From positions 310,001 to 374,000 of the forward strand of contig NZ_JADLZT010000003.1 of assembly GCF_015453285.1 (NCBI RefSeq): 64,000 nucleotides of DNA, read 5' to 3'. Under the pieces are notes generated by a model. That model was not told the DNA's origin, searched no databases, and saw nothing but the letters and a program-made list of their open reading frames with translations. Each line of letters opens with the position of its first letter. Position 1 is the first letter of the stretch. The stretch comes from Lysobacter niastensis. GTDB taxonomy: Bacteria > Pseudomonadota > Gammaproteobacteria > Xanthomonadales > Xanthomonadaceae. Of this stretch, positions 42,742 to 45,514 are shown piece by piece. A program made the position numbers and the translations under genes.

Positions 42742-43716
42742 TCAGCCAGCGGATCGGGAGGCGCCGCCGGCGAACAGCGCCAGCGCGGTTTCGAGGTCTT
42801 CGCGCTCGCGGAGCGGGTCGAACCATCGCGCGTCGAGCTCGCCGCGCAGCCAGGTCAACTGGCGCTTGGCGAGCTGGCGGGTGGCGTAGATGCCGCGGTC
42901 GCGCAGCTCTGCGGCGTCGAACGCGCCATCGAGATGCTCCCAGGCCTGGCGGTAACCCACCGCCCGCAGCGCGGGCAGTTCCAGCGGCCGCGGATGATCG
43001 CGCAACCCGGGCATGGCGCGCAGGCTGCGGACCTCGTCGAGGAAGCCGCCGGACAGCATCGCGTCGAACCGGCGGGCGATGCGCTCGTGCAGCACCGCGC
43101 GGTCGTCCGGCGCCAATACCAGCTTCAGCACCCGGTACGGCAGTCGCGGCACGGCGACGGCATCGCTGCGCCATTGGCTGATGGTGCGGCCGGACAACCG
43201 ATAAACCTCGAGTGCCCGCTGGATGCGCTGGGCGTCGGTGACATGGATGCGCGAAGCCGCCAGTGGATCGACGGCGGCCAGTTCGGCATGGAGCGCCGCC
43301 CAGCCGCGCTCAGCGGCTTCGGCCTCGATCCGGGCACGCGTCGCCGCGTCGGCCTCCGGCATCGGCGACAGGCCGTGCAAAAGCGCATGGAAGTACAGGC
43401 CGGTGCCGCCGGCAAGGATCGGCACCCGACCGCGAGCGGCGATATCGTCGAGTGCGCGGCGCGCATCGGTCGCAAACTCGGCCGCTGAGTAAGGCTGCCA
43501 AGGCTCCCGCAGGTCGACCAGGTGGTGCGGCACCCTCGCCTGCTCCGCGGCGGTCGGCTTGGCCGCGCCGATGTCGAGGCCGCGATACACCAATGCGGAG
43601 TCGACGCTGACGATTTCCCCGCCGAGCTGTTCGGCCCACTCCAGGGCGAGCGCGGTCTTGCCCGACGCGGTCGGGCCCATCAGTGCGATGGCGATCGGTC
43701 GTTGATCGGCGGACAT
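42742..43716 (-). CDS. miaA: tRNA dimethylallyltransferase
   Basis: A 324-residue enzyme that transfers a dimethylallyl group to A37 of tRNAs reading UNN codons. It has the P-loop GPTASGKT at residue 12, the [17 protein letters not shown] segment with the catalytic aspartate, and [19 protein letters not shown]. Start 43716 ([14 protein letters not shown]) gives the expected length; an open frame continues upstream through the DnaA-box repeat region but encodes no recognisable domain. It is first in the miaA-hfq-hflX series. Its upstream neighbour is the repeat array, so its promoter lies near or within the array. Confidence 0.97.
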
Positions 43717-43794
43717 GGGAGGGCTCGTAACACCTGGGGGCCGGGCCGTCGGGCGCGGCCGGCGGAAGCGAAGCCTCGCACAGTCGTGCGCGGG

Positions 43795-44499
43795 CTTTCC
43801 ACAATGGCTGTGGAGAACCGCCGGGGCAAGCCTGTGGACAAGGCGCTGCGACGCAGCAACGGCAAGGCCCTCCGGCTGATTGGCGATTTTTTGTCCACCC
43901 TCTTCCGGATGTCCACAAGCCCTGTGGACAAGCCTGCGGACAGACGCGTGATGAAGCCCCGCATCGCTTGATGGGATGGGGCTTGCCGCAGGTTTGGCGT
44001 TTTTTTGACCAGTGATTCGCATTGACAAATTGCGGCACATGCGCCGCATGCCGCCAACACCGACGCCGCTGCGATGCAGCAACTTCATCCGGCTCTGCGA
44101 GTGCGCATAGCGCACTGTCCACAACATCTGTGGACAAGCCTGCGGACAGACGCGTGATGAACATGCTGCGAGCCAGCAACGACGCGGGCTTCGCGAAGTT
44201 TGGACATTTCTTGACCACCGCTTCGGTTTGACATCCTGCATTGGATGCTCGTGCCGGCTCGATCGGCCCGCTCACCCCACGACTACGTTGCGCTGACTGA
44301 TCCACGCACGACCCAAAGCAGCAGCGCGGCGACGGCGTGGACTGACGTCAAGCGTCTACGAGTCTGTTCGCGCTGGTCGTCATTGCTGTCCACAGACGCT
44401 GTGGACAACCATGCGGACAGCGGTGTGGAGAATGCGCTGCGAGCCTTGCGCCGCAAGGCTCAGCGCAATATTGATCAAAAATTGACCACGCCGGAAGCC
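43795..44499. repeat. Four-copy DnaA-box-like repeat array between folP and miaA
   Basis: Four units start at 43795, 43909, 44115 and 44386. Each opens with an inverted pair of 9-mers, NTTTCCACA/NTGTCCACA then TGTGGANAA, separated by exactly 5 bases. At offset 26 three units have TGCGGACAG; at offset 38 units 1 and 4 have TGTGGACAA or TGTGGAGAA while units 2 and 3 have a decayed copy. At offset exactly 96 each unit has TTGTCCAC or TTGACCA next to an A/T-rich run. TTGTCCACA is the preferred DnaA box in several GC-rich bacteria. Six exact TTNTCCACA matches occur in 640 bases. No gene is present in this 798-base gap. Confidence 0.8.
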
Positions 44500-44514
44500 A
44501 ACGAAAAGCTTGAC

Positions 44515-45414
44515 TTATTCGTCGTCAGGCCACTTGAGCGAAGTCGCGCTCTTGTCCTTGCGCGCTTGCGGCATGGCGGCTAGCGCGTTCCACACCTTGA
44601 TCGCGTCCACCGTGGCAGCCACGTCATGCACGCGCAGCAGCTTCGCGCCGCGTTGCGCGGCGATCAGGTGCGCAGCCACCGAACCCGATACACGTTCGCG
44701 CGGATCGTCGCGGCCCGTGAGCTCGCCGATGGTGCGTTTGCGCGACAACCCCGCCAGCACGGGAACGCCGAGCTCAGCGAAGCGATCGAGGTGCGCAAGC
44801 AACTGCAGGTTGTGCTGCGTGTTCTTGCCGAAGCCGAAGCCGGGATCGACCACGATCTTCTTCTTGGCGATGCCGGCCATCTCGGCAGAAAAAATGCGCT
44901 CCGCCAGGAAGCGATGGACCTCGGCGACGACATCGTCGTACTGCGGCGACTCCTGCATCGAGCGCGGTTCGCCCTGCATGTGCATCAGCACCACCGGCAC
45001 GCCGAGCGAGGCTGCCATATCGAGCGCGCCCTCTCGGCGCAGTGCGTAGACGTCGTTGATCATGCCGGCACCGGCCGCCACCGCGGCGCGCATCACCTCC
45101 GGCTTGGACGTGTCGATGCTGATGGGCAGCGCGATCTGCTGCGCCAGGCGCTCGATCACCGGAATGGTGCGGCGCAGTTCCTCCTCCAGCGACACCTCGG
45201 CGGCGCCGGGACGCGTCGACTCGCCGCCGATATCGAGGATGTCGGCCCCCTCCTCCGCCAAACGAAGCCCGTGCGCGACCGCGGCTTCCAGCGTGTCGTG
45301 CGCGCCGCCGTCGGAGAAAGAATCCGGCGTGACGTTGACGATGCCCATCACCCGGGGGCGGTCGAGCACCAGCGGGCGTCCGTTGCAGTCCAGGGTGGGG
45401 GCGGTATCGAACAT
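44515..45414 (-). CDS. folP: Dihydropteroate synthase
   Basis: A 299-residue TIM-barrel enzyme that joins p-aminobenzoate to dihydropterin pyrophosphate in folate synthesis; it is the target of sulfonamides. GIVNVTPDSFSDGG and GGESTRPGA are the two family signatures. DPGFGFGKN and GLSRKRTIG supply later active-site residues. The start MFDTAPTLD at 45414 is the normal N terminus; an upstream in-frame frame reaches 45648 through the inverted-repeat region and is not part of the gene. In E. coli folP also follows ftsH, as it does here on the minus strand. Confidence 0.97.
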   Translation of the reverse strand: MFDTAPTLDCNGRPLVLDRPRVMGIVNVTPDSFSDGGAHDTLEAAVAHGLRLAEEGADILDIGGESTRPGAAEVSLEEELRRTIPVIERLAQQIALPISIDTSKPEVMRAAVAAGAGMINDVYALRREGALDMAASLGVPVVLMHMQGEPRSMQESPQYDDVVAEVHRFLAERIFSAEMAGIAKKKIVVDPGFGFGKNTQHNLQLLAHLDRFAELGVPVLAGLSRKRTIGELTGRDDPRERVSGSVAAHLIAAQRGAKLLRVHDVAATVDAIKVWNALAAMPQARKDKSATSLKWPDDE

Positions 45415-45514
45415 GGGCGGGATCCTTGTAGATGCCACGGCAATGCTAATGCCTTCGCGGAAGCAACAGCGGCAGGCTCGTGGGCGGCGGGCGCGGGGCG
45501 GTCCGGGCAGCCGC

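Follow-up and report, generated by a model that had tools for sequence, protein, structure and literature searches.

The 64,000-nucleotide stretch of the Lysobacter niastensis genome analysed here (the window) carries, between folP and miaA, an array of four repeated units that is probably a tandem cluster of DnaA-reactivating sequences (DARS). The cluster would be an amplified one, independent of IHF as judged by its sequence, that converts ADP-DnaA to ATP-DnaA with a capacity set by copy number; we infer this biochemistry. DARS have been dissected mainly at two single sites of Escherichia coli.

Array architecture

The units and the two neighbouring genes are as follows.

43795-43898 (+): DARS-like unit 1, miaA-proximal; boxes 43795-43803 (forward), 43809-43817 (reverse), 43821-43829 (reverse, degenerate) and 43833-43841 (reverse); dyad 43880-43897; Fis consensus with 1 mismatch
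43909-44012 (+): DARS-like unit 2; boxes 43909-43917 (forward), 43923-43931 (reverse) and 43935-43943 (reverse), box IV position degenerate; dyad 43994-44011; Fis consensus with 2 mismatches
44115-44218 (+): DARS-like unit 3; boxes 44115-44123 (forward), 44129-44137 (reverse) and 44141-44149 (reverse), box IV position degenerate; dyad 44200-44217; Fis consensus exact (0 mismatches)
44386-44489 (+): DARS-like unit 4; boxes 44386-44394 (forward), 44400-44408 (reverse), 44412-44420 (reverse) and 44424-44432 (reverse); dyad 44471-44488; Fis consensus exact (0 mismatches)
42742-43716 (-): miaA, neighbour; TIGR00174 298.7 bits, cut-off 148.65
44515-45423 (-): folP (dihydropteroate synthase), neighbour; TIGR01496 338.9 bits, cut-off 162.6; the coordinates are those of the stretch tested, not of the true start

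Each unit is a 104-bp module with DnaA-box positions at offsets 0 (forward), 14, 26 and 38 (all reverse) and a TTGG-A/T-CCA dyad, of the type TTGGC-A/T-GACCA, at offset 85-102. Unit 4 has the highest score of the four (79.4 bits, unit profile). The unit starts given in the preliminary description (43795, 43909, 44115 and 44386) are present in the sequence, as is the 5-bp gap that separates box I (forward) from box II (reverse) in every unit. The TTGTCCAC/TTGACCA site at offset 96 is likewise present in the units; it is the right half of the dyad at offset 85-102 and not a DnaA box. Boxes at offsets 26 and 38 do occupy the positions described, although their quality is weaker than had been claimed: the box III position is degenerate in unit 1 (CCGGGGCAA) and has 2 mismatches in units 2-4, and box IV is good only in units 1 and 4, with CGTGATGAA in units 2 and 3.

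The pattern TGTCCACA-N5-TGTGGA, with up to 2 mismatches, gave 8 matches in the 64-kb window (the four units, each counted on both strands) against 0.18 expected, a number reached in none of 100 shuffles. A genome-wide count of the inverted box pair, allowing 1 mismatch, revealed no scatter of copies: apart from the array, the pair occurs only once, upstream of priA. An RNA element was rejected after the Rfam search of 43000-45200 returned no match up to E 1.

Conservation of the units among relatives

The suggested search of related genomes found units of the same type near miaA in 31 of 80 related loci (named relatives fetched by MiaA), and the fetched flank contained no unit in 49 of the 80. 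Together with the window, these 32 loci yielded 100 unit matches, of which 4 partial ones were dropped, leaving 96 full-length units. Copies per locus range from 1 to 11, the maximum being that of Lysobacter antibioticus HS124. In 20 of 22 multi-unit arrays, the miaA-proximal unit is most closely related to a rank-1 unit from a different locus, loci with a single unit being counted as well, and the closest relatives of unit 1 of the window among the 96 units are also rank-1 units of other loci. The spacing between units is variable, with the next unit beginning at +113-115 in 14 of 64 spacings.

Information per position over the 96 units is highest in box II (1.87 bits), followed by box I (1.39), the dyad region (1.11), box III (0.82), box IV (0.75) and the middle (0.61). 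Box II has 0-1 mismatches to the DnaA consensus in all 96 units and box I in 92, with exactly 0 mismatches in box I in only 8. Box III never has fewer than 2 mismatches (96/96): it has 2 in 51 units and more in 45. Random 9-mers from the same units reach 2 mismatches in 1 of 1920 cases, compared with the 51 of 96 for box III. A sequence TTGAC, resembling a -35 element pointing away from miaA, stands directly after 30 of the 96 array units (offset 105-127), a count made with no control.

The unit model R1 matched 136 of 149 family genomes; it was built from Lysobacteraceae units, and this figure is hence not independent. Further single or paired Lysobacteraceae units (L200-L209) lie at places where no folP, miaA, priA or symporter gene was detected.

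Comparison with the E. coli DARS and datA

The DARS core has been defined from two E. coli sites, DARS1 and DARS2 (PMC5742627). As described in PMC5742627 and PMC8682772, the two sites share a core in which box I opposes boxes II and III at identical spacing, with contact head to head and release of ADP. The preliminary description had proposed a "datA- or DARS-like" element. Its DARS half is supported: the boxes follow the order, orientation and spacing found in the cores of E. coli DARS1 and DARS2, and the distal half of the unit is similar to DARS1. Its datA half is not supported.

In E. coli DARS1 (bioD-uvrB; 101 bp), the box offsets and strands are the same as in the units (0 forward, 14 and 26 reverse), with 1, 0 and 1 mismatches; DARS2 has the same core geometry, with 1, 1 and 1 mismatches. 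When the Lysobacteraceae unit profile was run against 19.6 kb of E. coli DNA, it detected DARS1 at E 3.7e-5 over model positions 2-93, the next best match having E 0.99, although only 43 of 104 ungapped positions of DARS1 are identical with the unit consensus. The DARS2 core was not found by the profile within the same 19.6 kb (best match in its locus L132, E 6). DARS1 also resembles the units in its length of about 100 bp and in having TTGGCG at +84, against +85 in the unit consensus, and like the array it has no IHF consensus with at most 1 mismatch near +121 (best 2). It differs in being one copy rather than a tandem array, in its adjacent genes, in a poor box IV position, in a dyad whose right half is not kept and in a poor fit to the Fis consensus (best 2 mismatches).

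DARS2 (between rppH and mutH; 455 bp) is reported to require IHF and Fis at set places (PMC4245941). It has IHF-like sites at +93 and +109, before its dyad, unlike the array, which carries no IHF consensus. The DARS2 dyad, of the form TTGGC...ACCAA (TTGGCGAAAGATCAACCAA at +184; L132:820 on), resembles that of the array. It stands 26 bp before a TTTATCCACAG box and may overlap the published FBS2-3 region.

A DARS promotes the release of ADP from ADP-DnaA, and initiation is delayed when it is deleted. Its boxes are close to the DnaA consensus, to which boxes I and II of the units come nearer than box III. Its other features include three boxes with box I opposing II and III at one fixed spacing, an accessory flank beyond the core (about 50 bp in DARS1) and an intergenic position between oriC and terminus. 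The units have the three boxes at 0/14/26. Beyond this core, their dyad region is more informative than the middle (1.11 and 0.61 bits per position, respectively), and a dyad occurs at +84 in class sites picked by the core, a like action of the flanks being putative. The array lies in the intergenic folP-miaA gap, with its position measured from dnaA. The IHF requirement of the DARS2 subtype has no counterpart here: an IHF consensus with at most 1 mismatch was found at +117-124 in 0 of the 96 array units and nowhere in the window between 43600 and 44650.

E. coli datA is likewise a non-coding cluster of DnaA boxes, about 6.5 kb from miaA, and has the effect opposite to that of DARS, namely ATP hydrolysis. 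According to PMC5742627, the essential boxes of datA all point in one direction and an IHF site lies between DnaA boxes. A datA-like element was rejected because here box I opposes II and III, because datA, even when best aligned with the unit layout, mismatches box I at 4 positions, and because 43600-44650 lacks an IHF consensus with at most 1 mismatch. The conserved miaA neighbourhood, put forward earlier for a datA- or DARS-like element, proved a weak argument: in four single-contig genomes of the genus (G001, G006, G010 and G011), the distance between dnaA and the array, as a fraction of the chromosome, is 0.29, 0.33, 0.34 and 0.33, compared with 0.10 for datA, 0.33 for DARS1 and 0.21 for DARS2 in E. 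coli (map positions in PMC5742627).

A review reports DARS1- and DARS2-like sequences as conserved across many proteobacterial species (PMC10380432), and we therefore do not claim DARS outside E. coli as new. Our literature search for DARS with Xanthomonas or Xanthomonadaceae found no report, which does not by itself establish the novelty of tandem DARS arrays.

A class-wide core with a fixed flank

The core pattern TTATCCACA-N5-TGTGGATAA-N3-TGTG, with one mismatch allowed, occurs in 171 of 274 class genomes (3 of them from the own family) and the reversed pattern in 0 of 274. With the gaps left free (1-12 and 1-8), exact matches were obtained in 106 of the 274 genomes. The first gap was 5 bp in all 147 exact matches. 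The second was 3 bp in 136 of them, and the others had 1 bp (9 matches), 5 bp (1 match) or 8 bp (1 match); the 147 include places matched twice with different gaps (e.g. G212, G196, G249 and G355). For the flank, a class set of 90 loci was taken from among the matches listed (30 tool-given and 60 hand-picked, one per genome, none from the own family). It yielded 91 sites for the dyad profile, 90 for the dyad position counts and 88 for the Fis and IHF counts, which needed longer flanks. In the core-pattern, free-gap, dyad-profile and Fis/IHF class tests, the sites were chosen without a flank model. Model R2, which matched 229 of 274 genomes, includes E. coli DARS1 and the dyad, and its result is hence supporting only.

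The dyad profile of the Lysobacteraceae units scored at least 6 at +81-88 in 48% of the 91 core-picked sites outside the family, whereas 68 control windows averaged 0.3% (maximum 1.1%). The best dyad offset, within a range of 60 to 109, was exactly 84 in 57 of the 91. In the class dyad, G86, A90, T96 and C100 are present in 62, 64, 70 and 62 of 90 sites, respectively; with T85 and T95 they are the six most informative dyad positions, and the four by themselves form the frame of the Fis consensus GNNYANNNNNTRNNC (taken, like the IHF consensus, from PMC4585315). No compensating changes across the dyad were seen in the class sites, which speaks against a hairpin and makes a protein-dimer site the likelier reading of the sequence.

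A Fis consensus with at most 1 mismatch, starting at 82-90, was found in 76 of 88 class sites (control 6%), and a predicted Fis site under the same limits (GNNYANNNNNTRNNC) in 75 of 96 array units (control 12%). Among 24 consensus-core single sites of the family (19 next to priA, the other 5 with no demonstrated link to it), only 2 carried it (control 10%), no better than control. A Fis homologue is encoded in 12 of 12 genus genomes. The IHF consensus (at most 1 mismatch, +117-124) is present in 59 of 88 class sites and 17 of 24 family single sites; in the class sites it is located at +119-122, control windows of 16 starts giving 0 to 15%. Its absence at +121 in the arrays is in part a matter of space, the following unit having already begun at +113-115 in the 14 of 64 spacings noted above.

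Paired DARS-like cores 350-400 bp apart were observed in three other families of the class (L313 [G409:C209]; G358:C1:2379301 and 2379702; G332:C4; G442:C13), suggesting that small tandem DARS clusters may extend beyond Lysobacteraceae.

A single site beside priA

In the window genome, the other place with the inverted pair is a single DARS-like site (G000:C8:96969-97070, minus strand; locus L194), flanked by priA and by a divergent gene whose product has a sigma-70 region 4 domain. It has TTATCCACA boxes and a perfect IHF consensus, AATCAACAACTTG, at +121. The unit model found such a weaker single site in 12 of 12 genus genomes (E 5e-7 to 1e-3), and priA was in the locus for all four genus sites fetched (L194-L197). 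Among 18 single sites with E <1e-3, drawn from 28 family genomes selected because their matches were weak or lacking, priA was in the 3.1-kb locus for 13 and absent from 5. The single sites also carry TTATCCACA boxes. The priA-linked site shares with the array units the core and the TTGGC dyad at the same offsets. Unlike the array, it is single, has consensus TTATCCACA boxes and an IHF consensus at +121, and lies nearer dnaA (0.07-0.09), the distances in the four single-contig genomes (G001, G006, G010 and G011) being 0.09, 0.08, 0.08 and 0.07 of the chromosome.

Alternative readings

The main rival to a DARS cluster is a passive one, which would hold back initiation by sequestering DnaA on its boxes, with no catalysis involved; we regard this as improbable, though worth weighing. 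Sixteen box positions within 700 bp, several of them degenerate, and the 11 units of L. antibioticus HS124 are what a titration site might look like, and titration on the chromosome has been proposed for E. coli (PMC12371093). However, titration requires boxes only. It would depend neither on the exact 0/14/26 geometry nor on a dyad that is not a box and keeps a constant distance, and these two features recur class-wide; box III is weak.

Distinctly less probable is an operator array through which DnaA or Fis controls transcription of miaA or folP. The array fills the folP-miaA gap, with 79 bp between the miaA start codon and the beginning of unit 1. Against this, a sodium:solute symporter gene (L039:2448-3935, Pfam SSF) lies inside the folP-miaA interval of several relatives, with units either between folP and the symporter (L149) or between the symporter and miaA (L147); units occur in both orientations among relatives (L044, L051, L061 and L072); and the module has other locations too, one of them next to priA.

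A second or alternative replication origin is very unlikely, even though DnaA boxes are clustered next to short A/T runs. The array has no large A/T-rich stretch (lowest 500-bp GC 0.59), and GC skew only fluctuates around it (+0.03 over the preceding 4 kb, -0.03 on the other side), so both an A/T-rich unwinding element and a GC-skew switch, as expected of an oriC, are absent. The dnaA-dnaN region carries TGTGGACAA and TTATCCACA and a box-flanked A/T-rich stretch of its own, and because of these boxes and this stretch oriC is predicted to lie there.

A decayed coding repeat, which the preliminary description had considered given that the units translate to similar peptides, or a scattered REP-type repeat, is already refuted for practical purposes by the inverted pair being at only two genomic places, stops in all six frames (22 to 58 of the 96 units per frame), variable spacing, and conservation between units that shows no codon phase (0.91, 0.89 and 0.92 bits by codon position; 96 units, 32 loci). 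Four ORFs gave no Pfam match at E 0.1, and the boxes themselves account for the similar peptides.

Proposed mechanism and significance

Returning to the DARS reading, ADP-DnaA would bind the facing boxes I and II, with further molecules in tandem on box III and, where it is intact, box IV. If the array works as in E. coli, the AAA+ domains would meet head to head, ADP would leave and the apo-DnaA would take up ATP and become competent for initiation. The +85 dyad, with its Fis-site layout, may bend or brace the flank, as the DARS1 flank and the DARS2 Fis site do. Because the IHF site of the priA-linked site is absent from the array, the array would supply ATP-DnaA constitutively, in an amount graded by copy number, and the priA site would be the timed source. 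As the number of units near these genes varies from 1 to 11 among the relatives that have them, unit copy number may help to set the timing of chromosome copying.

More tentatively, and with somewhat less than even confidence, we propose that the DARS of Gammaproteobacteria (in the GTDB sense) share one conserved layout, with the core at 0/14/26, a Fis-type dyad at +86 and IHF at +121, of which the E. coli sites would be rearranged or reduced forms. Lysobacteraceae would have divided the task: the DARS at priA, close to the origin and equipped with an IHF site, would be the timed one, and the mid-arm array, which lacks IHF, would tune the rate of ADP-DnaA recharging through its copy number (1 to 11).

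With Fis-type and IHF consensus sequences at set offsets, obtained from sites picked by the core only, there is now a recipe by which DARS can be sought throughout the class, and the fixed-offset flank consensus suggests a role for the DARS1 flank. The tandem array offers a natural copy-number series for asking whether the recharging of DnaA limits initiation. If the proposal is true, the array of Lysobacteraceae would be an initiation-timing dial that evolves by tandem duplication.
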